Source: Neolewinella lacunae (GTDB lineage: Bacteria; Bacteroidota; Bacteroidia; Chitinophagales; Saprospiraceae). Taken from it: a stretch of DNA of 45,467 nucleotides. The stretch is from contig NZ_JACSIT010000143.1 of the NCBI RefSeq assembly GCF_014349155.1, positions 659 through 46,125 of the forward strand, read 5' to 3'. The notes under the pieces were generated by a model. The model saw only the letters and a program-made list of their open reading frames with translations. It was not told the DNA's origin and searched no databases. Positions 1-44,905 of this stretch are shown in pieces. The position numbers and the translations under genes were made by a program. Every line of letters begins with the position of its first letter. Position 1 is the first letter of the stretch.

Positions 1-3000
1 TCAACGGTGATGTCGGCATTGCCAATCGGGTTACCGCTGCTGATGACGACGCTTACCGCTTCGCCGACGCAGGCGGGATCGGACAGCGTGATGAGCACCG
101 AAGGCCGTGCAAAAACGATTACCTCAAAGGTTCCCGTAAAATCACAGGGCCCCTCCTCGGAGTAAGTGACATTGATGGTATGGGTCGTTCCGGCTTCGGA
201 GCCCCCGGCGGCGGCGGCGTCGAAGGTGGTGCCCGATACGCCCGGCCCGCTGAAGGTGTAAGTAGCCCCGTTGCCGTTGCCGCCCGTTACCAGAACGGTG
301 CTGAGGTCCAGCGTTTCATTGCCGTTGAGGAGGCAAACCTGGTCGGCTACGCCCGTCCGATCGAGGGTAAACGGCGGACAAGCCTCCGCCTGGCAGCTCA
401 CTGCAACGGAGGCCGGACTATTGCCGCAAGCCCCACTTCCGAGGGCCGTAACCGTCATCGTTGCGGTCTCCCCGGGCAAAAGCCCACTGCGGGTGTAGCT
501 CGTTTGCCCCGCGGGAAGCATGTCTCCATTGTCAATCAGGTAACCCGTTGCACCGGCCACGGCGGGCCAGGTGATGGTGACGGAGTTGCGATCTGCCGCG
601 CTGCAAGTCGGGTTCGGTGCGGGCAGCGGATCTTCAACCGTAATGTTGAGTTGGGAAAGTGAACTGGTACAGCCATTGCCCTCAACCGTAAGCATAATGG
701 CAAAAGTACCTGCGGAAGCAAAGTTGAGCGTGTAGCTTTCGTAGCCCGCCAGCGCAGTCGCGGTGGCCGAAGCGAAGTCCCAGCTGAAAGTACCACTCGC
801 CGCCTGGGGCAAATCCCCGGCGTAGGCCAGTAGAATGTCTTCGCCGGTGCAGACGGTGATGTCCGTTCCTCCACCGTTCAGCGTGAAATCGCTGGTGGGC
901 GGCGCCAGGACGGTATAGGTAAAGACGGCCGTATCGGCGCAGGTCAGTTCGTTGTAGATCACCTGTATGGGGTGAGAACCCAGGCCCGCCGCAGCGGCAT
1001 CGAAAGTGAATACGCCCGCATTGTTGGTCACCCCGTTGCCCGTGAAGGCGAAGTTCCCCCCGCCAACGCCCCCGCTCTGGGTGGCACTCAGGGTTACGAC
1101 GTTACCCGCCGCCCCGAGGCAGAAGTCTGCATCGGCTGGCGGCGTCACCGTGATCGTCGGGCAGCTGGAAGCGGTACAGGATACCGGGGCCGAGGCCGCA
1201 CTATTGCCGCAAGGCGCAGCCCCGATGGCAATGACGGTAATGGACACCATATCGCCTTCGTTCAAGCCGCTGATGGTCAGGCCCGTAGAGTCCTGTAAGG
1301 TTCCCGGCTGGCCGTCAACGCTCACTTCGTAGGTCGCTACGCCCGGCTGGGGGTCCCAGCGAAAGGAGACGCTGCTCAGGCTGTTGGGGCCACAAGTGAC
1401 CACGGGGGGCAGGAGCGGCGCTACCACGTCAATGCTGTCGATGGCCACTGTGCCGGAGCATCCGTCGTCGTCGGTGATGACCAGACGGACGTATTTCCGG
1501 CCCGGACTGCTCCAACTTACGTCGATGGCGGCATCGTCTACGCCATCCGTCACCGTGGCATCGCTGGCGGGTACTTCCCAGGCATAGCTCCAGCCAACTT
1601 GCGCGGCACCTGCGTCCGCGCCCACTACCTCATCCGTACAAATCGGTCCGTCGGGCAGGTTGAAAGTAGAAGCGGGCAGGGCATTGATGGTCACGTCAAT
1701 GGTATCCCGGAAAGTACAGCCGCCCTCACTGAAGGTGGCAAAAACCTGGTGGATACCCGGAGCAATACCGCTGGGGTTAAAGGTACCAAGGGTGCTGCCA
1801 TCGGTCTGTAGCCAGCTCAGGCTGCCGCTGCCGTCGGAACCCATGACATTGGGTTGGAGGACGACGGTGGTGTCCTGGCCCGCGCAGAAGGGGCCGACGG
1901 GTACCAAATCCAACGTAATCGGCGGGCAGCTTTGGGCGGTACAGGTCAGGGTCGTTGGCGCGGAATTTCCGCAGGGGCCTCCGTTGACGGCGATCACCTC
2001 GATGGTCACCGCTTCGCCTTCGTTGAGGCCCGTGGCCAGCAGGGAATTGGCCGTTTGGGTGATCGTGGCACCGGCCGGCTGGCTGATGATGTTCACCATG
2101 AAGGTGCTGCTGCTCGGGTGGCTCCAGGCGAAGCCCACCCGGTCAAAACTTACATTCTCACAGTCAATTGTGGGCGCGGTCGCAGGTGCAGAGACCGTAA
2201 TGGGAGCAGTGGACGCTTGAGAAGGGCAAGCAGTACCCACCACTGCAAGACCAACAATCGGCATCCCCGGATCGTCAAAACGGATGACAATGGGCCCGAC
2301 GCTGTTGGCATCGCCACTGACCAGGGTAGCGCCCTGAGGAATTGCCCAGCCAAAGGCCAATCCAGTTGGGTCACCACCCGTGTACGTGAAGGTCACCTCG
2401 TCGCCCGCGCAAACCGCACTGCTGCTGGCGGAAAAACTGGCCGAGGGCGGGGCCAGTACCGTAAACTGGATGGTCGCAGGGTAAGTACAGGTTCCTTCAG
2501 TGTACACCAGAGTGACGGTGTGCACGCCCGGTCCTGCCGCGGCGGGGTCAAAGCTGCTGCCCGTAACGCCGGGGCCGCTCCACTGGATGCTGCCGGCCGG
2601 GGGGACGTTGGCGCTCAGGGCAACCGGGGTGGCCGAACCGTCGCTGCAAAAGGTTCCGGAAGGGGTGGTGATGACGGGGGTGATGGCTGCACAGGACTGG
2701 GCAACGCATTCCACCGGCAGGCTGGTTACGGGCGCGCAGCCCATGGTGTTGGCCGTTACGGAGATCGTCACCGCATCGCCCGCGTTGAGGTTGCGGACGA
2801 TGAAGCCCAGCGGCGTACGTTCAGTTGTTGCGCCGGCGGGGATGCTGATTTCGTTGACGGTGTAGGCGTCTGCCCCCACGTCGTTCCAGCTGAAGGCGAC
2901 GGAGTCCAGGCCCTGTTCCGCACAGGTCACGGTCGGCAACGCAGGGGGCTGGACGAGCGTGAATGAAGTGGTGAAACTATCCCCACAACCGGGGTTGCTC

Positions 3001-5438: not shown

Positions 5439-5699
5439 CCAATAGTCCAAACTAGCAGACACAGCACACGCGCAGTCATTTTCATCCAGGTCAAAGCTGG
5501 GTGTAAAGGTGTAGATTTGCGGGCTGAAAAATCAGGTGTTGGCTCAAAAGTACTTGGAAACGGTTAGGGACCTGCGTCTGAAGTAGCGTTGTGTAATACG
5601 TCTAGTGTTAACAAATTTTATGGGGTCAGGAGTGTCAAACTCCGTCAATACGGCTGCAAAATAAACCAATAGTTGACAGAAAAAAAACCTTTCCTTCAT
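5439..5699. other. Divergent intergenic region
   Basis: This 261-bp spacer separates the start of the giant secreted protein (minus) from the CPBP protease gene (plus). It is AT-richer than its flanks and must hold both promoters. I see no exact TAnnTTTG element, no RNA gene and no repeat in it. Confidence 0.5.
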
Positions 5700-6596: not shown

Positions 6597-6612
6597 GGTT
6601 TGCGTAGATTCA

Positions 6613-6630
6613 GGGCGCGGCCGCAGGTGC
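6613..6630 (+). repeat. 18-bp dispersed motif, copy 3
   Basis: Exact match with N=C (contains a NotI palindrome GCGGCCGC). It lies 16 bp past the CPBP stop codon in the spacer between convergent genes. Confidence 0.85.
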
Positions 6631-6715
6631 CGTGGACGGACAATAGGAGATATTTGGCAGACACAGGTTTTGTAACACCCTCCAGGTTTTGTAGCATCCT
6701 CCCCGGCGATAGCCA

Positions 6716-9394: not shown

Positions 9395-9730
9395 TTAAAC
9401 GCCGTCGGGGCGCGAGTAATCCACCCGGAATTTTTCGATCATTTCCGGCGTCAGCGAGTCGGCGTATACTCCATAGGCATCAACGAGCATCCCCCGGGTG
9501 CCGTCGTTGCCCTCAATGGCGTAGAGGACGGAGTTGTCATCCGGGTTACTCATCCCTTCAAAGCGAAAAGTGCGGCGGATGGTAAAGGCCTCGGGGGGGA
9601 AGTTCCGGTCCAGGGCTTCGCACCGCAGGCAGTCGCTCTGCTGTTCAAAATCGTAGGTATATCCTTCGTTGCGCAGCAGTTCGATGGCGGCGGAAAGCGT
9701 ATTGGGGGCATCAACTGATGGTTTGGACAT
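9395..9730 (-). CDS. Small conserved Bacteroidota protein, often mislabelled phosphoribosylpyrophosphate synthetase
   Basis: A 111-residue acidic cytoplasmic protein starting MSKPSVDAPNTLSAAIELL. Its central motif (RRTFRFEGMSNPDDNS, then YAIEGNDGTRGMLVDAYGVYAD) matches a small family widespread in Bacteroidota. That family carries the name 'phosphoribosylpyrophosphate synthetase' in databases. At about 110 residues it is a third of the length of a real PRPP synthetase and lacks the PRPP-binding loop, so that name should not be used. The upstream in-frame ATG at 9940 would add an improbable Cys/Phe-rich segment overlapping the rpmE2 start, so I chose 9730. Function unknown. Confidence 0.8.
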   Translation of the reverse strand: MSKPSVDAPNTLSAAIELLRNEGYTYDFEQQSDCLRCEALDRNFPPEAFTIRRTFRFEGMSNPDDNSVLYAIEGNDGTRGMLVDAYGVYADSLTPEMIEKFRVDYSRPDGV

Positions 9731-9813
9731 GGCGAGGTTTTTCTTTAGTTCAAGCGCTGGAAGCCGCCAAATGTTCGGCTTTGGCACAGTGGAAAGGAGC
9801 CTGCTGGCCGCTT

Positions 9814-9831
9814 GGGCGCTGCCGCAGGTGC
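9814..9831 (+). repeat. 18-bp dispersed motif, copy 4
   Basis: GGGCGCTGCCGCAGGTGC, one mismatch at position 7. It lies in the divergent spacer between the small conserved gene and rpmE2, about 60 bp upstream of the rpmE2 -7 element. Confidence 0.75.
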
Positions 9832-9870
9832 AGGGGAAAGGACACGGAGCAATGATCTGAGCAACGAGGC

Positions 9871-9901
9871 TTGGCGAATTCAAAACAAAAGCGTACCTTT
9901 G
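9871..9901 (+). promoter_or_regulatory. Bacteroidota promoter for rpmE2
   Basis: A -33 TTG at 9871-9873 and a -7 TACCTTTG at 9894-9901 are separated by 20 bp, the best-formed promoter in the window. The predicted start near 9905 gives a leader of about 18 nt before the ATG at 9923. This fits a highly expressed ribosomal gene. Confidence 0.7.
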
Positions 9902-9922
9902 CGCTCCGAAAAATATCAAGCA

Positions 9923-10195
9923 ATGAAAAAAGATCTGCACCCCGCAACGTACCGGACCGTAATCTTCCGCGATATCAACGCCAACATTTCATGGTTGGGC
10001 CGTTCCTGCGCCAAGACGCGGGACACCGACAAGTTCGAGGACGGCAACGAATACCCCCTGATCAAGCTGGAGATTTCCAACGAGTCTCACCCCTTCTTCA
10101 CGGGCAAGATGCAGTACGTCGATACCGCCGGTCGGATCGATAAGTTCAACAAGAAATTCGGCAAGAGCCGCTTCGCCAAGGCCAGCGAGGAGTAA
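9923..10195 (+). CDS. rpmE2: 50S ribosomal protein L31 type B
   Basis: A 90-residue ribosomal protein with the type B (zinc-independent) L31 pattern: MKKDLHPATYRTVIFRD at the start, then 'ESHPFFTGKMQYVDTAGRIDKFNKKF'-like residues near the C-terminus. It lacks the CxxC zinc ligands of type A L31. L31 bridges the large-subunit central protuberance and the small-subunit head. A longer frame beginning at 9812 includes non-coding leader sequence. The ATG at 9923 follows a strong promoter. A perfect hairpin terminator follows 54 bp after the stop, so it is monocistronic. Confidence 0.95.
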   Translation: MKKDLHPATYRTVIFRDINANISWLGRSCAKTRDTDKFEDGNEYPLIKLEISNESHPFFTGKMQYVDTAGRIDKFNKKFGKSRFAKASEE

Positions 10196-10249
10196 TTCCT
10201 TCGCCCCGAAGCAGACCTGCTTTTTTCCTTGCCGGCCGCCGGCCATGCG

Positions 10250-10290
10250 AAAGCCCGGAGTGAACGATCGTTCACTCCGGGCTTTTGTCG
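10250..10290 (+). terminator. Perfect palindromic terminator after rpmE2
   Basis: Bases 10250-10285 form a perfect 36-bp inverted repeat (arms aaagcccggagtgaacga and its exact complement) with no unpaired loop, ending in a T-rich tail. It is expected to terminate rpmE2 transcription and could work in both directions because it starts with AAA and ends with TTT. Confidence 0.9.
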
Positions 10291-10314
10291 TTGTGCTGCT
10301 CCGGCCTCAGCCCC

Positions 10315-10756
10315 GGGTATTGTCGCGGCGTCAGCCCCGACCCCGCTCAAGGTATTGTCGCGGCTTTAGCCCGACCACTTCACCTTGCGGGCGTCAGCCC
10401 CGACCCCCGCTCAAGGTATTGTCGCGGCTTTAGCCCGACCACTTCACCTTGCGGGCGTCAGCCCCACCCCCGCTCAAGGTATTGTCGCGGCTTTAGCCCG
10501 ACCACTTCACCTTGCGGGCGTCAGCCCCGACCCCGCTCAAGGTATTGTCGCGGCTTTAGCCCGACCACTTCACCTTGCGGGCGTCAGCCCCGACCCCGCT
10601 CAAGGTATTGTCGCGGCTTTAGCCCGACCACTTCACCTTGCGGGCGTCAGCCCCACCCCCGCTCAAGGTATTGTCGCGGCTTTAGCCCGACCACTTCACC
10701 TTGCGGGCGTTAGCCCCGACCCCCGCTCAAGGTATTGTCGCGGCTTTAGCCCGACC
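10315..10756 (+). repeat. 63/64-bp tandem repeat array (about 7 copies)
   Basis: The conserved block ggtattgtcgcggctttagc starts at 10351, 10415, 10478, 10541, 10604, 10667 and 10731. The periods are 64, 63, 63, 63, 63 and 64 bp, with a degenerate leading copy at 10315. Units are nearly identical over their whole length, including a second block (gcgggcgtcagcccc), so this is not a CRISPR. Because 63 is a multiple of three the array stays open in several frames and creates false long ORFs. It fills the space between the rpmE2 terminator and the yjjG promoter. An inverted relative lies at 8117-8192. Confidence 0.9.
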
Positions 10757-10853
10757 CTGGCCTGCAACGCAAAGCTTCCGAACCTATCTCCCACACCGCA
10801 GAGCATCGATCCCCAGCCGAATCCCCCCAACCCAGCTCCTCCAACTTTACCAG

Positions 10854-10871
10854 GCACCTGCGACCGCGCCC
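10854..10871 (-). repeat. 18-bp dispersed motif, copy 5
   Basis: Exact match on the minus strand with N=T. It ends 1 bp before the yjjG -7 element at 10873, where it would occupy the region between -33 and -7. Confidence 0.85.
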
Positions 10872-10872
10872 T

Positions 10873-10880
10873 TACCTTTA
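10873..10880 (+). promoter_or_regulatory. Probable -7 element (TACCTTTA) for the YjjG-like gene
   Basis: Seven of the eight consensus positions are compatible with TAnnTTTG. The predicted start near 10884 gives a 20-nt leader. The adjoining 18-bp motif could be bound by a protein that affects this promoter. Confidence 0.45.
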
Positions 10881-10903
10881 CACCCTCCAAATTTTGCTGC
10901 CTT

Positions 10904-11587
10904 ATGTACCGTTGGTTACTATTTGATGCGGACAACACGCTCTGGGACTTCGACGCCGCCGAAGCTTCCGCCCTGGAACGGACGCTGCGCGAGCGGGACA
11001 TCGACTGGTCGGACGAAGTACTGGGTGAATACCGCGAGATCAACCACCGCGCCTGGGCCGACTACGAACGCGGCCTGCTGCCCAAGGAACAGCTCCGCAC
11101 CATCCGCTTCGAGCGCCTGCTGGAGCGCTACCAGCTGGACCACCCCGCGGAGGAGCTCTCCTTCAACTACCGCACCTACCTGAGCCAAAGTACCCACCTG
11201 CTGGAGGGCGCTTACGAGTTGCTGACGACCCTGCGGCCCCACTACCGCCTGGGGATGGTCACCAACGGCCTGCGCGAAGTGCAACGATCCCGGCTGCTCA
11301 ACACGGGACTGGACCATTTCTTCGAATTTGTGGCCATCTCCGACGAAATTGGCGTCGGCAAGCCCCAGGCTGCTTTTTTCGACTACGCCTACGCGCAGAT
11401 GGATGGGGTAGACAAGTCTGCCGTACTGGTGATCGGCGATAATCCGGTGGCCGACGTGCGCGGGGCCCTGGACTACGGCTTCCACGCCTGTTGGCTGCGG
11501 CACCCGGGCGTAGCCGACCAAAAGCACCTGGGCGAAACCTACCGCATCCGCGACATCCGGGATTTGACGCAGTTGCTCGTTTTTTGA
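10904..11587 (+). CDS. yjjG: YjjG-family HAD phosphatase (noncanonical pyrimidine nucleotidase)
   Basis: A 227-residue HAD-superfamily phosphatase. Motif I is FDADNTLWDF (nucleophile Asp8, acid/base Asp10), motif II VTNG, motif III Lys in EIGVGKPQ, and motif IV VIGDNPVADVRGA. A helical cap is inserted after motif I. The 'DADNTLWDFDAAE' start and total length match the YjjG subfamily, which hydrolyses (including noncanonical) pyrimidine nucleoside monophosphates. The frame is open far upstream only because it passes through the tandem repeat array; the real start is the ATG at 10904, where the conserved first beta strand (YRWLLFDAD) begins. Confidence 0.88.
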   Translation: MYRWLLFDADNTLWDFDAAEASALERTLRERDIDWSDEVLGEYREINHRAWADYERGLLPKEQLRTIRFERLLERYQLDHPAEELSFNYRTYLSQSTHLLEGAYELLTTLRPHYRLGMVTNGLREVQRSRLLNTGLDHFFEFVAISDEIGVGKPQAAFFDYAYAQMDGVDKSAVLVIGDNPVADVRGALDYGFHACWLRHPGVADQKHLGETYRIRDIRDLTQLLVF

Positions 11588-11659
11588 TGGACGCCCTCCC
11601 AACTTAAGCGGCAGTGCGGCGTTGGCCCATCAACCATTTTTTCGATCATTCTTTTCCCC

Positions 11660-12307
11660 GTGACCAAGCAAGAAAAAGCCCACGCCATCCACCGCATCCT
11701 GGAGGACCTGTACCCCACCGTGCCCATTCCGCTGGACCACACCGACCCCTACACCTTGCTCGTTGCCGTCCTGCTTTCTGCGCAGTGTACCGACGTGCGC
11801 GTCAACCAGGTCACGCCCCAGCTCTGGGCGCTCGCCCAGCGCCCGGAAGAAATGATGGCGCAATCGGAAGAAGACATCCGGGCGATTATTCGTCCCTGTG
11901 GCCTCTCTCCGCGCAAAAGCAAAGCCATCAAGGAACTCAGCCGCATCCTCACGGAAGACTACGGCGGGGAGGTCCCCCAGGACTGGGCGGCGCTGGAGGC
12001 CCTGCCCGGCGTTGGCCACAAAACGGCCGCGGTGGTGATGAGCCAGGCCTTTGGCGTGCCCGCCTTTCCGGTGGATACCCACATTCACCGCCTGGCCTAC
12101 CGCTGGGGACTGAGCAGCGGCAAAAACGTGGCAAGCACCGAACGCGACCTGAAACGCCTGTTTCCGGAAGAAAGCTGGAACAAACTCCACCTCCAGATCA
12201 TCTTCTTTGGCCGGGAATACTGCCCCGCCCGCGGGCACCGGATGCGGGATTGCCCCATCTGCGGCACCTACGGACGCAAGGCGCTGCTGAAGGCGGAACG
12301 GGAGTGA
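11660..12307 (+). CDS. nth: Endonuclease III (DNA glycosylase/AP lyase) with altered Fe-S Cys pattern
   Basis: A 215-residue base-excision repair enzyme that removes oxidised pyrimidines and nicks AP sites. It shows the helix-hairpin-helix LPGVGHKTAAVV with the catalytic Lys, and VDTHIHRLAYR with the catalytic Asp. The start is GTG at 11660. The usual C-x6-C-x2-C-x5-C 4Fe-4S loop is changed: the C-terminus has C-x9-C-x2-C (EYCPARGHRMRDCPICG), so the second and fourth ligands are replaced by Met and Tyr and an extra Cys is present. Cluster binding is therefore doubtful or uses other ligands. Confidence 0.92.
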   Translation: MTKQEKAHAIHRILEDLYPTVPIPLDHTDPYTLLVAVLLSAQCTDVRVNQVTPQLWALAQRPEEMMAQSEEDIRAIIRPCGLSPRKSKAIKELSRILTEDYGGEVPQDWAALEALPGVGHKTAAVVMSQAFGVPAFPVDTHIHRLAYRWGLSSGKNVASTERDLKRLFPEESWNKLHLQIIFFGREYCPARGHRMRDCPICGTYGRKALLKAERE

Positions 12308-12409
12308 GCAAACGGTTCCGGGACCTCCGGTTGGGGAAGGACAGTGGTACCAGAGCGCTGGATCGGAGCGCTCCCCTCGCTTCAGCAACCTTTTGGCCCG
12401 GTGGCTGTC

Positions 12410-12417
12410 TATTTTTG
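12410..12417 (+). promoter_or_regulatory. -7 element (TATTTTTG) for the UbiA-family gene
   Basis: A perfect TAnnTTTG 28 bp before the ATG at 12446. A TTTG at 12392-12395 is upstream but only 14 bp away, closer than usual. Confidence 0.5.
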
Positions 12418-12445
12418 CGTAAACTTTTTAAACTGCACTCCGCCG

Positions 12446-13324
12446 ATGCTGCTGCTCCGCCGGTTGGGCGACTTCCTCTCGCTCGTCAAATTTTCCCACA
12501 CCATTTTTGCCCTGCCTTTCGCGTTGATCGGCTTTTTTCTGGCGGTGCTGGATGCGGGGGAACTGCGCTGGCAACAACTGTTGCTGGTGGTGCTCTGTAT
12601 GGTCTTTGCCCGCTCCGCAGCGATGGCTTTTAACCGTTGGCAGGACCGCGACATTGACGTAAAAAACCCCCGGACGGCGGTGCGGGAAATTCCGGCCGGC
12701 ACCATCTCCAGCCGGGCGGCGCTGAATTTTGTGGTGCTCAACTGCGCCCTGTTCATCGTTGCGGCGGGCTTACTCAATTGGCAGTGCCTTCTCCTCTCGC
12801 CGGTAGCCTTGCTGGTCATCCTGGGGTACAGCTATACCAAGCGTTTTACCTACCTCTGCCACTTCGTTCTGGGGCTCGGCCTAGCGTTGGCTCCCGTGGG
12901 GGCTTACCTGGCGGTGACGGCCCAGTGGGCTTTGCTGCCGGTGCTCTACGGCGGCGTGGTGCTGCTGTGGGTGGCGGGCTTCGACATCATTTACGCCCTG
13001 CAGGACGAAAACTTTGACCGCGAGGAGTCGCTGTATTCCATTCCGGTGCGGTTGGGGACGGTCCGGGCGCTGCGCCTGGGCCGGATTTTGCACTTGCTTT
13101 GTGCGACTTTGGTCGTAGTGGCGGTACTGCGGCAGGCGGCTTTGTACCCGGAGTTCGGTACCCTGAGCTACGCGGCGGGAGCTTTCTTCCTGGCCGCGCT
13201 TACTTATCAGCACACCCTGGTGAAGGCGGGAGATTTGCGGCGGATCAACCTCGCCTTTTTTACCACTAATGGCATTGCCAGCCTGGTCTTTGGGGCGCTT
13301 ACGGTGCTGGATGTGTATTTGTAG
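12446..13324 (+). CDS. UbiA-family prenyltransferase (menaquinone-type, MqnP-like)
   Basis: A 292-residue integral membrane prenyltransferase with about eight or nine membrane helices. The first Asp-rich motif is FNRWQDRDIDVKNPRTA (Asn/Asp Mg-pyrophosphate site), followed by REIPAG; the second is DIIYALQDENFDREE. The opening KFSHTIFALPFAL and the 'RTA.REIPAG' signature match the UbiA-other/MqnP group (TIGR01475 type), which prenylates an aromatic ring in quinone synthesis. Menaquinone is the expected quinone in Bacteroidota, so I infer that pathway. A GTG at 12344 would add 34 residues that the -7 element at 12410 argues against. Confidence 0.85.
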   Translation: MLLLRRLGDFLSLVKFSHTIFALPFALIGFFLAVLDAGELRWQQLLLVVLCMVFARSAAMAFNRWQDRDIDVKNPRTAVREIPAGTISSRAALNFVVLNCALFIVAAGLLNWQCLLLSPVALLVILGYSYTKRFTYLCHFVLGLGLALAPVGAYLAVTAQWALLPVLYGGVVLLWVAGFDIIYALQDENFDREESLYSIPVRLGTVRALRLGRILHLLCATLVVVAVLRQAALYPEFGTLSYAAGAFFLAALTYQHTLVKAGDLRRINLAFFTTNGIASLVFGALTVLDVYL

Positions 13325-15416: not shown

Positions 15417-15434
15417 GGGCGCGGCCGCAGGTGC
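15417..15434 (+). repeat. 18-bp dispersed motif, copy 6
   Basis: Exact match with N=C, 27 bp after the stop codon of the preceding barrel-type gene and followed by agtgggg. Confidence 0.85.
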
Positions 15435-19092: not shown

Positions 19093-19111
19093 GCACCTGC
19101 GTTTAGCGCCC
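19093..19111 (-). repeat. 18-bp dispersed motif, copy 7 (diverged, 19 bp)
   Basis: Outer parts match (gcacctgcg and gcgccc) but the centre is ttta with one extra base. It ends 6 bp before the bshB1 -7 element at 19118. Confidence 0.55.
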
Positions 19112-20046: not shown

Positions 20047-21381
20047 TTAAGATAAATCATTTATTATACCCACGTACATCTCGCTCCACCCCGCCCAGCC
20101 GTAACTTTCTGCGAAACTGCTGTTGTGCCAAAGCAGCGCAAAATCCCCGCCGTGGGGCCGTACTTTCTGGGCAAGAGAAAGCACTTTTTCGCGGGCGTCG
20201 GTAGCGTTTAATCCGAGGTAATTTTTCAGGGTAACGTCCATGGCCGCGAAGGGATGAACACTGAGGCCGGTGGCTTCTTCCCGTTCCAGATCATACCAAA
20301 AAAAGGGCAGGTTGGTGCCGGCGCGCCAGCCCACGGCATCAGCGTAGCCCATGCTGTACTCGTGGGTGATGCCCGCCAGGCGCAGTTGCCGGTAAGTATC
20401 GGGCAGGCGAAAGCGCAAAAAATGTTGGCGGGCGTGCTGCACCCGGTGGCCGAGTATCCGGGCGAGCCGTTCGGTTTCTTCCCGCAGCAGGGCAGGGTCG
20501 GTACTGCTGCGGTAGCTGGGGTGGATGCCATGCGTCACTGCGGCCGGGACGTTTTGAAGCAGGTGCACTTGGGCGGCGGGAATGGGGTAGGGGTTGGGGT
20601 CATGACGGCTCCCGTTATCGGCCAGCAGCCAAAAAAGCTGGATTTTGTCCGTAGGGCGCTGCCGCAGGTGCAGGGAAAAGATGAAGGGCAATGTGGCGAA
20701 GGGGTCATCATCCGCTGCCGTGGTGAAGCGTTGCCAGGCACGGCGCCAGTGCCCCGTCAGTACATCCCGCAGGCCCGCCGCAACTCCCCGCCATCCCCGG
20801 TGCTGCCAGGCCCAGGGGATGTCGATGTCGTACGTCGGCCGCAATATCATGGGCTCCACCCGCTCCGGCAAGCCCGGGAAGACCTGGCGCAGTTCCGTCC
20901 TCAGGGCACAGGCCCACTCCCGTACCACCGGACGTTCCAGAAAGCCCGCACGGTAGGCCAGGCTGGCCGTGGCGGGGAAGCGCCCGTGGGCATCCGAAAC
21001 AAAATCCTGGTACTCCTCGTAGCGGGAGAGCTGGTAGAAAATGCAGGCCAGCAGGTCGTAGCCTTCCATTCCAAGAGGGCCAACGACGGGGAAAAACACG
21101 GGCAAGTCACCGTCTTGGACGGGAACCAAGTCTTTCGCGCCCGGTGCTGCACCACTCATGAAGGGGTGCGCCGGCCAGGCCACGTAGGGCGGGGCCTCCG
21201 GACTGAGCTTCGGTTGGCCGTAGACCACCCTGGCTTCGCTTTCCGCCGCCAGCCATTGTTCTTCGCGGGTGAAAAGCCGGAAACGGTAGCCCAGGTCGGC
21301 CCCGATTTCGTGCAAAACGTAGCGCAGACGCGGATGGCGGTGCGGACTCAAAACGGCAATGGCGGGCGCTGGCTTCGGCAT
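20047..21381 (-). CDS. Polysaccharide-deacetylase-like protein of Bacteroidota
   Basis: A 444-residue cytoplasmic-looking protein without a signal peptide. The N-terminal 150 residues form a separate domain (RLRYVLHEIGADLGYRFRLF, DLPVFFPVVG, DLLACIFYQLSRYEEY). From about residue 190 it resembles a polysaccharide-deacetylase (NodB-like) barrel: RPTYDIDIPWAW corresponds to the metal-binding TFDID strand, then FWLLADN, GIHPSYRS with a candidate metal His, and DFALLWHNSSF near the end. The architecture (DUF7033-type plus deacetylase) is common in Bacteroidota capsule/exopolysaccharide contexts, but the gene stands alone here. I chose ATG 21381; the earlier ATG (21471) crosses an 18-bp motif. Confidence 0.75.
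   Translation of the reverse strand: MPKPAPAIAVLSPHRHPRLRYVLHEIGADLGYRFRLFTREEQWLAAESEARVVYGQPKLSPEAPPYVAWPAHPFMSGAAPGAKDLVPVQDGDLPVFFPVVGPLGMEGYDLLACIFYQLSRYEEYQDFVSDAHGRFPATASLAYRAGFLERPVVREWACALRTELRQVFPGLPERVEPMILRPTYDIDIPWAWQHRGWRGVAAGLRDVLTGHWRRAWQRFTTAADDDPFATLPFIFSLHLRQRPTDKIQLFWLLADNGSRHDPNPYPIPAAQVHLLQNVPAAVTHGIHPSYRSSTDPALLREETERLARILGHRVQHARQHFLRFRLPDTYRQLRLAGITHEYSMGYADAVGWRAGTNLPFFWYDLEREEATGLSVHPFAAMDVTLKNYLGLNATDAREKVLSLAQKVRPHGGDFALLWHNSSFAESYGWAGWSEMYVGIINDLS
20654..20671 (+). repeat. 18-bp dispersed motif, copy 8 (inside deacetylase-like gene)
   Basis: GGGCGCTGCCGCAGGTGC, one mismatch, identical to copy 4. Antisense to the gene, it encodes the His-Leu-Arg-Gln-Arg-Pro stretch. 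Confidence 0.6.
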
Positions 21382-21445
21382 TTCCCGGGCAAGGTACGGA
21401 GTCGATCCGGTACCATCTATCCTGTGGTTTTTAAGACTTCCATTG

Positions 21446-21463
21446 CACCTGCGCCCGCGCCGT
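21446..21463 (-). repeat. 18-bp dispersed motif, copy 9
   Basis: CGGCGCGGGCGCAGGTGC on the minus strand (mismatch at position 1, N=G). It lies in the divergent spacer about 65 bp upstream of the deacetylase-like start. Confidence 0.65.
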
Positions 21464-29666: not shown

Positions 29667-29684
29667 GGGCGCGGCCGCAGGTGC
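29667..29684 (+). repeat. 18-bp dispersed motif, copy 10 (left arm of inverted pair)
   Basis: Exact match with N=C, 15 bp after the CHU_C gene stop. It pairs with the reverse copy at 29754-29771 around a terminator. Confidence 0.9.
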
Positions 29685-29702: not shown

Positions 29703-29742
29703 AAAAAGCCAGGGAAGTCCTCCGACCTCCCTGGCTCTTTTA
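29703..29742. terminator. Bidirectional terminator between convergent genes
   Basis: Stem AGCCAGGGA (29707-29715) pairs with TCCCTGGCT (29728-29736). A run of A lies on the left and cttttat on the right, so both strands carry a U-tract. It serves the converging CHU_C gene and the small exported gene. Confidence 0.88.
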
Positions 29743-29753: not shown

Positions 29754-29771
29754 GCACCTGCGGCCGCGCCC
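29754..29771 (-). repeat. 18-bp dispersed motif, copy 11 (right arm of inverted pair)
   Basis: Exact match on the minus strand with N=C (as in copy 10), so the two 18-bp arms are perfect inverted repeats separated by 69 bp. It lies 10 bp past the stop of the small exported gene. Confidence 0.9.
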
Positions 29772-32492: not shown

Positions 32493-32551
32493 AGGGTTGG
32501 CTGGCGGCTGCTGGGCTGAAGGCCCTCTCTTGCTCCATGTTACCTCGCCCG

Positions 32552-32569
32552 GCACCTGCGGCCGCGCCC
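32552..32569 (-). repeat. 18-bp dispersed motif, copy 12
   Basis: Exact match on the minus strand with N=C, 6 bp beyond the aquaporin gene's stop codon, between convergent lepB and aquaporin genes. Confidence 0.85.
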
Positions 32570-34643: not shown

Positions 34644-34661
34644 GGGCGCGGACGCAGGTGC
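34644..34661 (+). repeat. 18-bp dispersed motif, copy 13
   Basis: Exact match with N=A, about 109 bp upstream of the aldolase start codon in the divergent spacer. Confidence 0.85.
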
Positions 34662-36974: not shown

Positions 36975-36992
36975 TGGCGCGGCCGCAGGTGC
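36975..36992 (+). repeat. 18-bp dispersed motif, copy 14
   Basis: TGGCGCGGCCGCAGGTGC, mismatch only at position 1, about 106 bp upstream of the rlmH start. Confidence 0.8.
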
Positions 36993-37305: not shown

Positions 37306-38685
37306 TCAGTCTGCTAAATCGTATTCTTTGATTTTCCGGTAGAGGGTGCGTTCGGAGATGCCTAGTTCGGCGGCGGCTTCTTTGCGGCGGCCACCGTGTT
37401 TGCGGAGGGCTTTGCGGATGAGGTCTTTTTCGGCGTCGGCCAGGCTGAGGTTTTCCTCGACCACTTCGCTTTCGGCGTAGGCGCGGTGCATGTCGTGGCT
37501 GACGATGACGGGGGCGTCAACGGTGCTGGCCTGGAGACCACCGCTCGTTGTCCCCCGCCGTGCACCTGCGTCCGCGCCCCCGGTGCGCTCACGGCTGGGA
37601 AAATCGCGGAGGAAGTCCTCGGTGCTGTTCCGGGGCTGCAAGCCACGCTCGGCGACCATGCGGTCCAGCACCTCTCCGGCATCGGTGAGGTGGGCGGGCA
37701 TCTGGAGGGAGCGGACCTTGGTCATGTCGGGGATGCTCAGGTCGTTGCTGCTGATCAACTCGGAGACGAGGCGCTTGAGTTGGATCATGTCTTCGCGCAT
37801 TTCGAAGAGGACCTTGTAGAGGATTTCCCGCTCGTGCATGGAGATGCCCGGGCCCTGGTCTTTGCGGTCTTCCGCGCGGATGGCCGGGAGGTTGCGCTGA
37901 AGGAGTTGGGGCATCATATCGGCGAGATCGATGGCCGTCATTTCCCGCTTTTCGGAGAGGATACTGAGGCGTTCAGCGACGTTTTTCAGTTCCCGGATGT
38001 TTCCCGGCCAGCGGTAGTTCTCCAGCAGCCAGCGGGCTTCTTCGTCGAGCCGGACGGCCTCAATGCTCTGCTTTTCCGCAAAATTGTTGGCGAAAAAGCG
38101 GAAGAGGAGGTAAATGTCTTCCTGCCGCTCGCGCAGGGCTGGCATGTCGATGGGTACGGTCGCCAGGCGATAGTAGAGGTCTTCGCGGAACTTGCCATCG
38201 CTGACGCGCTCGATCAGGCGGCGGTTGGTGGCGGCAACTACGCGGACATCCGTGCGTTGCACCTTATTGGAACCCATCCGGATGAACTCGCCATTTTCGA
38301 GTACCCGCAGGAGATAGGATTGGGTTTCGAGGGGCATTTCCCCGATTTCATCGAGGAAGATCGTACCTCCGTTGAGGGTTTCGAAGTAGCCTTTGCGGTC
38401 GGCGCGGGCGTCAGTATAGGCCCCTTTTTCGTGGCCAAACAATTCCGAGTTGATGGTCCCCGGGGGGAGTGCACCGCAGTTGATGGCGATGAAGCCCTCG
38501 TGTTTGCGCACGCTGTTGTCGTGAATGATGCGGGAAATTACCTCTTTGCCCACGCCGCTTTCGCCGGTGATGAGCACGGATAGATCGGTGGAAGCAACGC
38601 GCAGCGCCGTCTGGAGGGCGTTCTCCAGCGCGGGGGAACGGCCGACGATGCCGTAGCGGCGTTTGATCGTGTCGAGGTTAGCCAT
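37306..38685 (-). CDS. Sigma-54-dependent activator (AAA+/Fis type) without receiver domain
   Basis: A 459-residue bacterial enhancer-binding protein. The AAA+ domain starts at once (YGIVGRSPALENALQTALRVASTDLSVLITGESGVGKE, Walker A), then Walker B GGTIFLDEIGE and the REDLYYRL arginine-finger region. The sigma-54 contact loop is GAYTDA rather than GAFTGA. The C-terminus is a Fis-type helix-turn-helix (KHGGRRKEAAAELGISERTLYRKIKEY). There is no N-terminal sensor domain. The variable linker (about residues 340-410) contains an in-frame 18-bp motif. It follows miaB by 32 bp and is likely cotranscribed; this gene order is common in Bacteroidota. Confidence 0.9.
   Translation of the reverse strand: MANLDTIKRRYGIVGRSPALENALQTALRVASTDLSVLITGESGVGKEVISRIIHDNSVRKHEGFIAINCGALPPGTINSELFGHEKGAYTDARADRKGYFETLNGGTIFLDEIGEMPLETQSYLLRVLENGEFIRMGSNKVQRTDVRVVAATNRRLIERVSDGKFREDLYYRLATVPIDMPALRERQEDIYLLFRFFANNFAEKQSIEAVRLDEEARWLLENYRWPGNIRELKNVAERLSILSEKREMTAIDLADMMPQLLQRNLPAIRAEDRKDQGPGISMHEREILYKVLFEMREDMIQLKRLVSELISSNDLSIPDMTKVRSLQMPAHLTDAGEVLDRMVAERGLQPRNSTEDFLRDFPSRERTGGADAGARRGTTSGGLQASTVDAPVIVSHDMHRAYAESEVVEENLSLADAEKDLIRKALRKHGGRRKEAAAELGISERTLYRKIKEYDLAD
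37562..37579 (-). repeat. 18-bp dispersed motif, copy 15 (inside sigma-54 activator)
   Basis: Exact match on the coding strand with N=A, read in frame as Gly-Ala-Asp-Ala-Gly-Ala in the linker before the DNA-binding domain, the same frame and peptide as copy 1. Confidence 0.85.
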
Positions 38686-38717
38686 AGGTTGGGTGTTCCA
38701 GCGCAGGGGGCTGGAGT

Positions 38718-40148
38718 TTAGCGCGCGCCGAACAAGGTGGCACTGGTGGAATCAATGATGCGGACCGTTACGTAATCGCCGGGTTTTTCCCCTTCCAGCT
38801 TAGGGAATACCACCATGCGGTTTTGGGTGGTGCGCCCTTTCCAGTCGGCGGCAGATTTTTTGGAATCACCCTCAATGAGGACCTCGAAGCTTTTGCCGAC
38901 TTCGGCTGCGTTGAGCTCACGGCTGATGTCGGTCTGTAAGTCAATGATCTCCTGCAAACGCCGCTTTTTCACGGGTTCGGGGACGTCGTCAACGAATTTT
39001 TTGGCCGCCGGCGTGCCCGGGCGCTCGCTGTAGAAGAACATGTAGCTCATCGAGTAGCGGGCGTAGGCAATCATCGAAAGGGTATCCTGGTGCTCTTCCT
39101 CGGTCTCGGTGCAAAAGCCGGTGATGATGTCGGAACTGATGGCGCAGTCGGGCATGATCTCGTAGATGCGGTCTACCTTGGCCTGGTACCAGGCGCGGTC
39201 GTAGGTCCGGTTCATCAATTCGAGGATGCGCGAATTGCCCGACTGGACGGGCAGGTGGATGTACTTACAGACGTTGTGGTGGTCGCGCATGGCGTAGAGC
39301 ACCTCATCGGTAATGTCTTTGGGGTGGCTGGTGCTGAAGCGGATGCGCAGGGCGGGGTCTACTGCAGCAGTCATGGCCAGCAGTTGCGCAAAGTTGACAC
39401 TTTCGCCCGTTTCGGGGTTTTCCCACTTGTAGCTGTCGACGTTCTGCCCCAGCAGGGTCACTTCGCGGTAGCCACGGTCGAAGAGGTCGGTGGCCTCCGC
39501 AACGATGCTGAAGGCGGAGCGGCTGCGTTCGCGGCCCCGGGTGAAGGGCACCACGCAAAAGGAACACATGTTATCGCAGCCCCGCATAATGGAGATGAAA
39601 GCCGTGATGCCGTTGGACTGGAGGCGAACGGGGCTGATATCGGCGTAGGTCTCCTCGCGGCTCAGGAATACGTTGACGCCTTTTTCACCCTCTTCGGCAC
39701 CCGCCACGAGGCCGGGCAGGTCGCGGTAGGCATCGGGGCCGACTACCAGGTCGACGAGTTTCTCTTCTTCCAGGAACTTGGCCTTGAGGCGCTCCGCCAT
39801 GCAGCCGAGGACCCCCACCATGGTGCCGGGGTGGCGTTGCTTGACCTTATCGAAGACCCGCAGGCGTTTGCGTACCGTGTCTTCGGCCTTCTCGCGGATG
39901 GAGCAGGTATTGATCAGGATCAGGTCGGCACTTTCCAGGTCGCGCGTAGGGCCGTAGCCCGCCTCGCCGAGGATGGATGCGACAATCTCGGAGTCAGAAA
40001 AATTCATCTGACAGCCGTAGCTCTCGATGTAAAAACGCTTCTCGCCGGGGCGCTTGGGTGCGAAATCCGCCCCAAATACCTCGCCTTGTTTCGTCTCATC
40101 TACCGTCTTGGTTTCCAGATCGTGGAGCGTGGGATTGTCGTTATACAT
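38718..40148 (-). CDS. miaB: tRNA-2-methylthio-N6-isopentenyladenosine synthase MiaB
   Basis: A 476-residue radical SAM methylthiotransferase that modifies i6A37 to ms2i6A37 in tRNAs. The N-terminal cluster ligands are in YGCQMN, NTCSIRE and LGCMAER. The radical-SAM motif is GCDNMCSFC (CxxxCxxC), followed by [10 protein letters not shown], and a C-terminal TRAM domain ([11 protein letters not shown]..., [13 protein letters not shown]). ATG 40148 is chosen over 40175, which adds nine residues ahead of the promoter-proximal boundary. A TATCTTTG -7 element lies 25 bp upstream. First gene of an operon with the sigma-54 activator. Confidence 0.96.
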
Positions 40149-40172
40149 AGGTGATGCACCTTTTTGAGCCCG

Positions 40173-40180
40173 CAAAGATA
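40173..40180 (-). promoter_or_regulatory. -7 element (TATCTTTG) for the miaB operon
   Basis: A perfect TAnnTTTG on the minus strand, placing transcription start near 40169 and a leader of about 21 nt. Confidence 0.6.
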
Positions 40181-40256
40181 CGGTGCCCGGCTGACAGAAT
40201 GACAGTTTCGCCCCGCTTTTTCGTCGAATCGAAACTTTCTTTCCACGTGCAAAGAC

Positions 40257-40292
40257 AAAACCCCGCCTCCGGGTGGCTGGAGACGGGGTTTT
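40257..40292 (-). terminator. Terminator of the subtilisin-like protease gene
   Basis: aaaaccccg pairs with cggggtttt and ctcc with ggag, with one mismatch, around a gggtggct loop. On the minus strand a TTTTGTCTTTG tail follows. It lies 24 bp past the protease stop. Confidence 0.88.
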
Positions 40293-40315
40293 GTAGGGGT
40301 AAAGAACGGCGAAGC

Positions 40316-43300
40316 TTAACGCCGGATCACGATCCGCTCGGTGCTTACTTCTTCATCCGTCAGGATGCTGATCAGGTAAACGCCGGTGGGCAGGGTGCTG
40401 ACGTCCAGGGTGACCCGTTCGATGTTGTCGTAAGTATGGTGGAGCAGGCGCTTGCCATCGATGGTGAAGACGGTGATTTCCTGGATGGGATCACCGGCGT
40501 ACACCCGGACGTGGTCGGTAGCGGGGTTGGGGCTCAGCATGAGTTCATCGTCGAGGCTGGCGGGTTCCCCGCTACGGCGGTGGGTGGCTACTTCGGAGAT
40601 GGAAGTAATGGCTCCTGCTCCCGTAGTGGCCTGTGCTACCGTAAATCCGGTCACGGTTACCTGGTCGATGTAGATTTCGTCGCTGTTGTCGCTGGCGTCA
40701 CACTGGAAGCGGAACTGGGAGCTGCTGCCGAGGTTGAAGCTGGAGGCGGGCAGGGTAACGGTGGCTGTGTAGAAGCCGTTGTTTGAGAAGCTGCTGCCAG
40801 CGGCGTAGGTGGCCACTGTTTGCCAGCCGGAGCCGCCGTTGAAGCGGACCCAGAAGTCCTCGCCGTTTTCCATACTGCGGGCGTAGAAGTAGAAGGTCAG
40901 TTCTACGGAGGCCAGGCCACTCAGGTTGAGTACGGGTGAGGTCATGGCTGAAGCGGTGCCTGAGTTGTCGCGGATGCGGACGGAGAAGTTGCCCTCGTAG
41001 CTGTAGGCACTAGTGGAAACCCTGGCTACGTCGCCACCACCATCGATCCAGCCCTGGAGGCCGGTTTCGAAGAAGTAAGCACCCAGCTCGCCGCCGCCAC
41101 CGGTGCAGCCGGTAGTGGTAACCGCAGCCGCATTGCTGGTAGCCGATGCATTGCCCGCTGCGTCGTTGGCCGAGACAGTAAAGGAGTAGTTGGTGCAGGC
41201 AGTAAGCCCGTTTACCGTAGCGGCGGTGCCGGTAACCGTGCCCAGTAAGGTACCGCTCGAAAAGACATTGTAGCTCACCACGCCTACGTTATCGCTCGAA
41301 GCATTCCAGCTAAGGGAAACGGAAACGTCGGTAATGTTGCTGGCCGTCAGGCCGGTTGGGGTCGTCGGAGGGGTAGTGTCGGGGCCGGGACCGCCGATGC
41401 AGAAGTCCGTAGCCTGGCTGGAGCCGAAGGAACCGCCACTGGCCAGCACCGTAGTTCCCCGCCGCAGGGTGTACGAACCATTACCGTAGCTGCAACAGAT
41501 GCCGTCGCCGTAGCTGTCGAGGATGGTGAAAGTGTAGCAATCATCAGCCAGGCAAATGGTCTCGTTGATCGTGCTGCCATCGGGAGACGAACCGTAGGTG
41601 CCGCCGCTGGCCACAATCTGCCCAGCGTCGTTGGCAATCCGCCAGCTGGTTTCCTCGGGGTAATTGTCCAGGGTAATGGTCAGGGTCACCTCCGTGCCAT
41701 TGCAGCCTACGGGCGGACAGGCCGGGCAGCTGGGGCCACCGCAGTCAATGCCCGTTTCCTGACCGTTCTGGACGCCGTCTGTACATGTGGGGCCGCCGCC
41801 GCCACCACCCGCGTTCTGGATGGCTCCCAGGGCATTTACCCGGCCGTTGGCATACTCCAGGTCGTCACCCGCCGGGCCCATGTCGATGGCCGTGCTGTAC
41901 AGCAGGTCCTTAACCTGGGTAGAAGTAAGGTTGGGGTTGAAACCCAGAACCAGAGCGGCTACGCCCGCCACCACTGGGCAAGCGGAAGAGGTTCCCCCAA
42001 AGTTGTTGGTGTAGTTGCCGCTGCCGTAGCCGGGGCTGCCCATCCGGTCCGTAGTCCGCACGCCCGCACCGGGGCCGCCTACGTTATTGGATGGGGCCAT
42101 GATGTCGAGGTCCGTACCATAGTTGCTGTAAGCCGAACGGATGCCCTGGTTGGAGAAGGCCCCAACGGCAATCACATTGACGTTTTTGGCCGGGTAATCC
42201 ACACAATTCTTGTAGCCGTTGCCGGAGGCGAAAACTACTACCGCACCCAGGCCACCGCGGCCATTGCTGTTGGCATCAGCCAGGGCATTGTTGATGTTGG
42301 TAAAGTTGGCCGTACAGGAGGTGTAGCCCCAGGAGTTGCTCAGTACGTCCGCTCCCTGGTTTTTAGCCCAGGTAATGCCGTCGGCAATGTCTTGGGTGGA
42401 TTCTCCCCCGACGAAGATGTTGACCGAGATCAGATTGACCAATGGGGCTACTCCCATGACGCCAATATTGTTGTGGCTGGCCGCAATGGAACCCGCGCAG
42501 GATACCCCGTGGGCACTGCCGCTTACGGCGTTTCCGTTGCCGTTGTTGGCCGGACTGAATCCTGCCGTATACCGACTTGCCCCCGTGCTGGTAACGAAGT
42601 CTTCGTGGGCCTCCAGACCATCGTCAATCACCGCTACGGTGATGGAACTGGAGCCCAACGTAAGGCCCCAGGCTTCCAGGGCGTTGCAGTCCGCATCCGC
42701 CGTTCCCGTCACTCCGTCCAGGGTCTGGCCGGTGTTGTTCATCTGGAACTGCTGGCTGAATAAGGGGTCTTGGTAACGCTCGATGGGCGCGTAAAAGTCG
42801 GGTTGGGCAAATTCAGCCAGTCCGCTTTCGTACACCGCGTTGGAGGCCGCGAAGGCCTGCGTGACGTCCAGCAACTCAATGCGGAAGATGCCGTCTTTGC
42901 GCACCACGTTCTTAATGCCATACTGCCCCATCAGGTCGAGCAACTGCGCCGCGTCTTTTTTGTCCTTTAGCTTGGCGACAATCGTACGGGTGGGGAAAAT
43001 GGTGTAGCCATCGGAGTAGCTGAAACCGGGGCTTACCTGGACTGCTCCGGGGGTAAGTCCGAGGCTGGCGGCTACGGCGTCGGGGCGCATCGGACTGGCC
43101 ATTTCCACCACTGCGTACGGCTTGTGCGGCCAGCTCGAATAGCGTTTAACGTCGGCCGTACGGACGCGGGCCAGCTCGCTCCCGGCGTCCGCCGTGATGA
43201 TGAACTGGGTAGTGGAGGCGCGGAGCGCCACTTTGCCTTCTTCCGTCCAGTAATGGGCAGACTGGGCGATGGCAGTTGTAGCCCAGCAGAGGCAGAGCGC

Positions 43301-43324
43301 CCCCAGGAGTAAATGTTTTAACAT
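40316..43324 (-). CDS. T9SS-secreted subtilisin-like (S8) serine protease
   Basis: A 1002-residue exported protease. Signal peptide [20 protein letters not shown]; a propeptide-like region runs to about residue 185. The S8 triad is Asp234 (TVAVIDDG), His272 (SAHGVSCAG) and Ser446 (GGTSSACP), with oxyanion Asn369 (FASGNG). After a Gly-rich linker (near 505) comes a Cys-rich [17 protein letters not shown] stretch and an [17 protein letters not shown] / DSYGDGICC domain. An FN3 domain (about 650-740) and a jellyroll-like region follow. The C-terminal 75 residues ([23 protein letters not shown]) are a type A T9SS sorting domain. It would degrade proteins outside the cell. Confidence 0.93.
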
Positions 43325-44905
43325 GTCTTAAAGGTTGGTTACGTAAGTAGAGAGAGACAAAAATGAAGTAGTGATAGTACTATTGACAGCCAGCCCAGCG
43401 GGCCACTTGCGGTAAATGTAATCATTATCCTTGTGTTGACAAGTTAAAATCTGATTTTTTGGGTTAAACAGCTATTTTGTACTGCCTGGCAAGGTTTTTG
43501 CGGTAGAAATGAAAGTGGTTTTTGGCGCGGCCGCAGGTGCAGGGTAGGGGACACGAAGGAGCTTCGTCCAACCGCTGCAAGACAGGTGTTGGTAAAGCAT
43601 AAGGTGCTGATTATAAGTGTTTTAAAACATTTCCGAACCACGTACTCATCCACCAGGTAAGGGATGCACTGCACTGTCATGGCCTTCCCGGCCTCCTCTT
43701 TTGCACTCTTCGCCTGTTTTTTTGTGAGACAACGGTCGCCACCCCGCTGGAGCTAGCCCCGCCTGGGAAGCCCGGAAGTGATGCAACCAATTGCTGCCCA
43801 CCTGCCTGGTCTGAAGGACAGGGTAATGCTCTCGCAGTTGCGGGGCCGGCAACGCTGATCATTCAGGATCGGCCAGATGCTACGGCTAAGACTTCGCCAG
43901 GCCGCGTCAGGTTTGTTGCGGGAATTAACGGGCCATCGCGTCAGGGTGGACTTACGGCGACCAACCATAACAGCTCGGGCCAAAACCGCAACCCCGCGCC
44001 TTTGGAGTAAGGAGCCTCCTTTAGTGGCGAAAGGAGCCATAGCGTGAGGGGCTTACCTTATAATATAAAATATGGTCTTTTCTTAAGTATTAAAAGAAGT
44101 GGCTATCATGCTTTTTTTTGGGTATGATATTTTTTTCACACTAAAAAATTGATTCGGTGGTTCGAGGTTTGGGAAAAGCAGTTTGTGCCAAAGTTGGAAG
44201 TTAAATATTTGGCTATCAGTTATTTGTGATTTTCGTGGCCCCTTTTGTCAGGGGGCGGGCAGCTTCTGGTATGTGTTAAAACCCGGATTTATTTCAATTT
44301 TTTTTTGGGCGCTAACCAATATCTCTGTATATTAGCTAATGAAAAACCTGTCTGTGGTGCCTATAGGCCCGATTCATGGCAGGTAGCTGTCCTTTTTTCT
44401 ACTTCAATAAATAACTCTCAATGAAAAAGTGTCCTCTCAAATTTGCTCTTAGCTGACCCCTGTTGTGCCGTGGGCTGAAAAGTCCTTATGCATAGCTGAG
44501 CAGTATCAAGCTCCTGCTTCCTGATTTCCGTGTAGCGTGCTGCATGGACAAGGATCGGTATGCATTTAATCTGGCGAAAACGTGCGCGTGTATTTCACAC
44601 GATTAGCCACTATTTTGTCCAGTCGAATGTATAAGTCATTAATTTTCAGGACTTAGTGTGCTTTATTCATCTTTCCTTGTCTTGCGCTGTGCGGATCGGG
44701 CCGAGCATTTTTTTGTTTTTTGTACTTATCAATTACTTCCCCATCGGGCATTATCCTGCCCGTGAAATAGTCGTCCCTTGGGGCGATAGTAAAGGATTTT
44801 TTGCCCTGAAATAATGGTAGAAAACTCCCGAAAATTTAAACGACCCCAGGGTCGTAAGCCCTGTGTCGTGCTATTTGACTGCGTTTAATCTCAAAAGAAG
44901 ACCTT
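43325..44905. other. 1.58-kb region without recognised gene; AT-rich right half
   Basis: The left half holds an 18-bp motif, a small cgaag/cttcg hairpin near 43557, and a GC-rich patch (about 43640-44040) with overlapping open frames that I cannot assign. From 44041 the sequence becomes strongly AT-rich with long T runs and no long frame. A 12-codon frame (MKKCPLKFALS, 44421-44456) and a hairpin cgggca/tgcccg near 44745-44762 are visible, as is acgaccc/gggtcgt near 44839. No tRNA or insertion sequence is recognised. The AT-rich part is likely the upstream region of the partial secreted gene. Confidence 0.5.
43523..43540 (+). repeat. 18-bp dispersed motif, copy 16
   Basis: TGGCGCGGCCGCAGGTGC, mismatch only at position 1 as in copy 14, about 200 bp upstream of the protease start; followed by agggtagggg. 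Confidence 0.8.

Follow-up and report, generated by a model that had tools for sequence, protein, structure and literature searches.

The motif and its copies in the window

The stretch analysed here (the window: 45,467 nucleotides of contig NZ_JACSIT010000143.1 from the draft genome of Neolewinella lacunae, Saprospiraceae, Bacteroidota) carries a dispersed 18-bp motif, hereafter the core, in both orientations. Judged from sequence, it is a real, genus-wide, dialect-forming, and directional signal, which most likely works like a DNA uptake sequence. The initial annotation had listed about 16 copies and offered three readings, namely an uptake sequence, a site bound by a protein that organises or partitions the chromosome, or a mobile element of very small size. 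What goes beyond it is the second box, the dialects, and the strand-specific spacing described below.

The window was searched for the core on both strands at up to three mismatches, with 100 shuffled sequences for comparison. Sixteen matches were found against 0.74 expected, and none of the 100 shuffles reached 16, which agrees with the earlier claim that chance is insufficient to give such a density. Ten copies are exact, the number first counted, five have one mismatch, and one has three (39191+, inside a miaB-like open reading frame, ORF); this last match may be due to chance. The single mismatch is a T at position 7 in copies 9814+ and 20654+ and the first base in 21445-, 36975+, and 43523+, so that three copies, and not two as had been stated, differ at the first base only. 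All four bases do occur at position 9 if the copy at 21445 is included. Fifteen of the copies listed at first (ten exact, five with one mismatch) were borne out, while the one at 19093, outside the 16 matches, stands only as a variant that fits less well (GGGCGCTAAACGCAGGTGC), in which the middle of the core has gained a base and two others are altered. Four copies lie inside genes, as annotated: those at 20654 and 37562 in genes wholly within the window and those at 1606 and 2172 in a long ORF cut by its edge. The copies at 1606 and 37562 are in frame, and the peptide Gly-Ala-Asp-Ala-Gly-Ala (GADAGA) is indeed encoded twice. The copies, with the second box (box B, see below) where it was assigned, are as follows; they rest on the motif search, ORFs and gene calls, with family matches for 36975 and 37562, and on inspection of the sequence for the 19093 copy and for box B (at 9844 also on the offset statistics).

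1606..1623, minus strand: core, exact; in the long ORF running off the window, GADAGA frame
2172..2189, plus strand: core, exact; antisense in the same edge-cut ORF as the 1606 copy
6613..6630, plus strand: core, exact; intergenic
9814..9831, plus strand: core, one mismatch; intergenic
9844..9854, plus strand: box B of the 9814 copy, ACGGAGCAATG, 12 nt past the core
10854..10871, minus strand: core, exact; intergenic
15417..15434, plus strand: core, exact; intergenic
19093..19111, minus strand: core, loose variant, 19 nt long through one added base, with two others altered
20654..20671, plus strand: core, one mismatch; antisense within a predicted gene
21445..21462, minus strand: core, one mismatch; intergenic
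29667..29684, plus strand: core, exact; tight inverted pair with 29754 between convergent genes
29730..29740, minus strand: box B of the 29754 copy, AAAGAGCCAGG
29754..29771, minus strand: core, exact; partner of 29667
32528..32538, minus strand: box B of the 32552 copy, ATGGAGCAAGA
32552..32569, minus strand: core, exact; intergenic
34644..34661, plus strand: core, exact; intergenic
36975..36992, plus strand: core, one mismatch; upstream of a SPOUT methyltransferase gene (PF02590)
37562..37579, minus strand: core, exact; within a gene for a sigma-54 activator, in its variable linker (GGADAGAR)
43523..43540, plus strand: core, one mismatch; outside the listed ORFs

Genome-wide count and distribution among genomes

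The initial annotation had called for a genome-wide count and had held that a motif found only in this region would not represent a system. The draft genome from which the window comes (G000; G001 and so on denote the other genomes searched) contains 448 + 431 = 879 exact copies of the core, and the reversed control gave none; the motif is thus not confined to the window. In a sample of 842,467 bases of G000, 217 sites were found at up to two mismatches, that is, one per 3.9 kb. Orientation is mixed along every stretch of the draft contigs, e.g., 25+/26- and 23+/22- on two held-out stretches. A motif that is directional, frequent, and species-specific might be a Chi-like recombination hotspot, recognised directionally during double-strand break repair; however, the mixed orientation along every contig stretch and a length much greater than that of known Chi sites make this explanation barely credible.

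A count in related genomes had also been proposed. Among the 120 genomes searched, the window's spelling occurs exactly in 19 of the 21 Neolewinella genomes (G000 and 18 of its 20 congeners) and in none of the 99 others, of which 52 belong to other genera of the family and 47 to the order. Over-representation within the genus is strong, since in each of the 21 genomes one of the four patterns searched has 24 or more exact copies. In a named collection, the repeated bearers among the matches listed, which may not include the window's own genome, were Neolewinella and Lewinella species and metagenome-assembled genomes (MAGs), and other organisms gave single matches. The record containing locus L068 is titled as a Klebsiella pneumoniae MAG, a title that may not fit its content; none of 22 genomes in its order has the uptake signal sequence (USS) pattern. 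No comparable dispersed word was found in 10 other Saprospiraceae genera (12-60 kb each; G024 and G039 were left out because their stretches were too short), a survey that is a weak test because, run on 79.5 kb of G004, the same procedure did not recover the spelling known from that genome either.

Dialects within the genus

Spellings other than the window's were searched within the genus only, with one match in the reversed control for each of the GGGCGGGGNCGCRGGWGC and GCGSCGGRGCGCRGGTR searches. Copies of GGGCGGGGNCGCRGGWGC number 474 in G011, 294 in G017, 286 in G005, 222 in G004, and 205 in G008, with 3 in G000, and those of GCGSCGGRGCGCRGGTR number 367 in G001 and 228 in G006, with 27 in G000. 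The word GGCTANCAAAGTAGCARNG is present in G010 in 133 + 143 = 276 copies and in none of the 20 other genomes of the genus; from the common outline, we infer that it is related to the other spellings. Both genomes at zero for the window's spelling, and several low-copy ones, hold hundreds of copies of another. The genomes are 71-86% identical at miaB, and in a miaB tree, rooted by choice at G010, the spellings largely cluster by clade; G005, G012, G016, and G020 hold mixtures of them. Support is only 0.17 for the node joining the GGGCGGGG group (G004 with G008, G011, and G017), and G005 falls outside that group. The dialects are largely clade-specific, as in the class of DNA uptake sequences.

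Anatomy of the motif

A few T-rich bases precede the core in G000, and after it come a T-poor stretch and then box B (AAGGAGCAAGG). At a threshold of at least 8 of 11 positions within 80 nt, box B accompanies 151 of the 217 G000 copies, including 31 of the 53 inside genes, and 9.5% of random places give a match in a slightly wider, 90-nt search. It was found at 32 of 64 copies in G005. The offset of box B in G000 peaks at 12. Where the core has a C-rich hairpin-like module behind it, the peak is at 34, and a few copies, among them some with two modules, have an offset of 55; each step is close to two turns of the helix. By a crude score of five Cs within 20 nt, the module is present in 47/217 copies in G000, 0/64 in G005, and 0/41 in G011. 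The core and box B at one fixed spacing were found in 30 copies in 8 of the 21 genomes, a number that is low because both spacing and letters vary.

The C-rich hairpin (e.g., TCCCCCCCGACCCCCCGAAGGGGGGAG), sometimes doubled, was seen between the core and box B at G000 loci L009-L020, L022, L023, L025, and L026. With a strict hairpin pattern, 22 of 22 hairpins in the first G000 sample lay no more than 60 bp from a core. Several places in G000 (L028 11283-11650, L022, L016, and L009 5741) bear short repeats of an unrelated type (GAATGCGT/GAATGAGT).

Placement relative to genes

The comparison of coding and intergenic frequency, suggested in the initial annotation, relied on a crude, codon-based gene caller built for this analysis, which gave 598 genes and 82% coding sequence. 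The 217 sites are divided into 158 intergenic, 53 genic, and 6 edge ones, and only 17% of random positions are intergenic. Gaps between tandem genes contain 39 sense and 44 antisense sites, convergent gaps 31, and divergent gaps 44, and the copies inside genes are 28 sense and 25 antisense. No association of motif orientation with gene direction or arrangement was found among these 217 sites. An RNA element, a terminator, or a promoter is disfavoured because orientation and gene arrangement show no link in G000. The window has no Rfam match at the gathering threshold.

An uptake sequence would be expected to be depleted in mobile DNA. In the largest gap sampled (20 kb) lie a gene for a Schlafen-type helicase and an ORF of 2250 aa, and the next two gaps hold ORFs of 2516 and 2741 aa. 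Inside this longest sampled stretch that lacks sites, a protein of the Schlafen group 3 helicase / S24 peptidase kind adjoins a TPR protein; the two lie at L025 12582-16788 (about 132.6-136.8 kb of G000 C22).

Spacing and orientation of neighbouring sites

The sites on each strand are evenly spaced, most clearly in G000, where they are nearly independent of those on the other strand, and this is a new observation here. Same-strand gaps in G000 (n = 203) have a mean of 7.64 kb and a coefficient of variation (CV) of 0.51; 4 are shorter than 0.25 of the mean against 44.9 expected, and 9 exceed twice the mean against 27.5 expected. Since the strands are spaced evenly and nearly independently, close neighbours come out opposite in orientation: below 1.6 kb this holds in G000 for 53 of 54, whereas a strand-blind process would give about half. 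Below 3.2 kb, neighbours were opposite in 50/58 in the first G000 sample and in 34/38 on held-out contigs fetched later, values reached in none of 5000 label shuffles in either case. Within the same distance, the proportion was 16/17 in G011 (0/5000 shuffles), 20/27 in G005 (81/5000), and 11/12 among 100 listed sites of the G010 dialect (107/20000). A model of two independent, evenly spaced strands accounts for the orientation table of G000, apart from an excess of pairs less than 500 bp apart (24 vs. 14.6 expected). The strand-specific evenness suggests polar action, in which a tag serves the DNA on one side of it. In the excerpts of the uptake-sequence literature that were available, no description of such evenness was met.

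Even spacing with strand-specific exclusion, both orientations, and the intergenic bias could also be produced by the binding site of a chromosome-organising protein of the nucleoid or loop-anchor type, required at regular intervals on each strand. This second of the three original readings is kept as a rival, although an unlikely one, as different 18-bp spellings at hundreds of places in congeners would be hard to explain without a drive.

The exact motif was also met on 83 stretches of a viral collection, and box B was present as well in 17 of 80 loci examined. One 44.6-kb contig, IMGVR_UViG_3300009467_000002, has seven exact matches over five stretches (L147, L161, L176, L205, and L210), and L147 contains two near-identical 46-nt repeats of the core and box B type. 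One of nine ORFs searched on this contig matches tail fibres. These matches to a viral contig and to tail fibres speak for a further explanation, in which a gene transfer agent derived from a phage would start packaging at the motif in one direction: motif-bearing host DNA would be exported more often, with the same drive acting on the donor side, and polar action would yield strand-specific spacing. Eight of the nine ORFs, all from one part of the contig, are nevertheless without a phage family of known function, and we consider a packaging start improbable.

Origin and turnover of sites

Conservation of individual sites had been proposed earlier as a check. A tight inverted pair is retained in G001, G004, G016, G017, and G020, with the plus-strand member spelled differently in G001; in G012 and G008 this member is present but too diverged for scoring. 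The site G004:9010 is absent from seven congeners. It arose by substitution, as at this one cleanly aligning site the matched flanks are 18 bp apart in six of the seven congeners lacking it (17 bp in the seventh). In other comparisons the lengths vary, and these carry little weight in either direction.

These data bear on the third original reading, in which the motif is a small mobile or palindromic repeat element and even spacing results from deletion between close direct repeats. The tight inverted pairs, the C-rich hairpin-like module of G000 (which is not found in G005 and G011), and the varying length of several site-lacking alignments would fit such an element. However, G004:9010 aligns without a change of length to most of the congeners that lack it, an orthologous site holds another spelling in place, and 53 copies lie inside genes. 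Deletion between direct repeats is also insufficient, because it would not deplete long same-strand gaps, which are depleted as well as short ones. A mobile element is thus disfavoured and seems highly improbable.

Competence machinery and known uptake sequences

The initial annotation had recommended a check for competence genes. ComEC was detected in every one of the 21 Neolewinella genomes and DprA in all but one (20/21), and that one is 55% complete. PF00437, the family of pilus and type II secretion ATPases, has matches in 20/21 genomes (11/21 at the cut-off). Two of the matching ORFs were followed up as candidate pilus ATPases, and both were Clp-type AAA chaperones.

Specific uptake sequences are described from two proteobacterial families, Pasteurellaceae and Neisseriaceae, in the parts of PMC7811141 consulted. 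The DNA uptake sequences (DUS) of Neisseriaceae resemble the Neolewinella motif in their many copies and in clade dialects that follow phylogeny; they have no orientation bias along the genome, and in Neolewinella orientation is mixed along the draft contigs (PMC3630211, in part, for DUS). DUS, as described in the sources available in part, are 10-12 bp long and are read by the pilin ComP, whereas the Neolewinella motif has 18 bp and, in some species, a second box. It also differs from DUS in belonging to another phylum, in the lack of a detected pilus ATPase, in its density of about one site per 3.9 kb, and in the strand-specific even spacing. With the Pasteurellaceae USS the motif shares a core with contributing flanking segments (PMC7811141, in part) as well as even spacing, ascribed to Karlin, and an excess in non-coding DNA (PMC1939737, in part). 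The USS sequence is unrelated, and its flanks are AT tracts, while those of the Neolewinella motif are purine-rich in G000 and G005. Excerpts of PMC1939737 report USS uptake to be independent of orientation, in contrast to the polar action proposed here, and inside the genes of most Pasteurellaceae one of the two orientations prevails (PMC2346458, in part), unlike the nearly equal sense and antisense numbers of G000.

Within Bacteroidota, Riemerella columbina, like Neolewinella a member of this phylum, prefers its own DNA in competition, according to the sections of PMC7965970 available; no specific tag is established in them, and the k-mers listed are A/T-rich words. Transformation of R. anatipestifer requires ComEC, DprA, and proteins unlike known machinery (PMC8459023, in part). 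No uptake sequence of Bacteroidetes/Bacteroidota was found in literature searches, whose coverage leaves out most subscription journals.

Interpretation of the motif as a probable uptake sequence

Of the three readings offered at first, the uptake sequence is the best supported, because the motif is genus-wide, present in both orientations, spelled in clade-related ways, mostly intergenic in G000, and of substitution origin at the one site with clean alignments. This combination of findings is predicted by transformation-coupled drive for an uptake sequence. The motif is probably a DNA uptake sequence, that is, a self-recognition tag bound when the cell takes up free DNA. It is proposed that a putative surface receptor would bind the asymmetric core, in some species together with the second box about 12 nt downstream, and would feed DNA in one direction towards ComEC. 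Tagged DNA would be imported and recombined more often, so that tags would accumulate by transformation-coupled drive, and a change of the receptor would let the copies drift to a new dialect. Under polar action, a second tag in the same orientation within a few kb would be redundant, while one in the opposite orientation would not, which would leave about one tag per strand per 7.6 kb.

Several observations weigh against this interpretation. Concerning spacing, G005 has seven same-orientation neighbours below 3.2 kb, those of G010 at 3.2-6.4 kb are opposite in only 1/7, and the evenness is weaker outside G000 (CV 0.64 in G005, 0.65 in G011, and 0.80 in G010). Box B stands out in G000 and G005, whereas in G011 it was found in only 6/41 copies, and G013, the lowest genome, reaches no more than 24 exact copies with any of the patterns searched. 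The site-lacking alignments of varying length include that of the 16-bp site G010:13901, opposite which 8, 13, and 10 bases were found. By analogy, the polar part is opposed by excerpts of PMC1939737, in which uptake by Haemophilus influenzae did not depend significantly on how the strongest site was oriented. ComEC and DprA are weak evidence because they are widespread in control genomes as well (10/14 and 11/14, respectively, E. coli included). No pilus ATPase was detected in the 21 genomes of the genus, where the PF00437 matches cover at most 84 of 370 positions. Characterised uptake sequences work via type IV pili, and with no pilus ATPase detected the putative receptor would have to work without them. 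In searches covering few subscription journals, no uptake or transformation data for Neolewinella were found, nor any paper joining Lewinella with natural transformation.

A more specific form of the uptake reading can be put forward tentatively, with a likelihood just short of even. The motif could represent the first family of DNA uptake sequences in Bacteroidota, long (18 bp, or about 45 bp with the second box in some species), split into dialects within one genus, read by a receptor independent of type IV pili, and one-directional, each strand having its own set of evenly spaced tags about 7.6 kb apart. If this is true, another phylum would supply an independent case, apparently one without pili. 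Such a case would mean that self-recognition at DNA uptake evolves repeatedly, and it would hint at a sequence-specific DNA receptor of a new class. The strand-specific even spacing offers a testable signature of directional action, which can be checked in genomes with known uptake sequences. Experiments are possible, since cultured motif-bearing species exist (N. agarilytica, N. persica, and N. aurantiaca).

Other observations

Two further observations concern other sequences. In G001, L220 4032-5461 is a repeated stretch with copies 93 bases apart. In the window, at 9395-12633, several short overlapping ORFs adjoin an ORF that resembles, by eye, an ABC transporter ATPase, which suggests a broken gene or assembly frameshifts.

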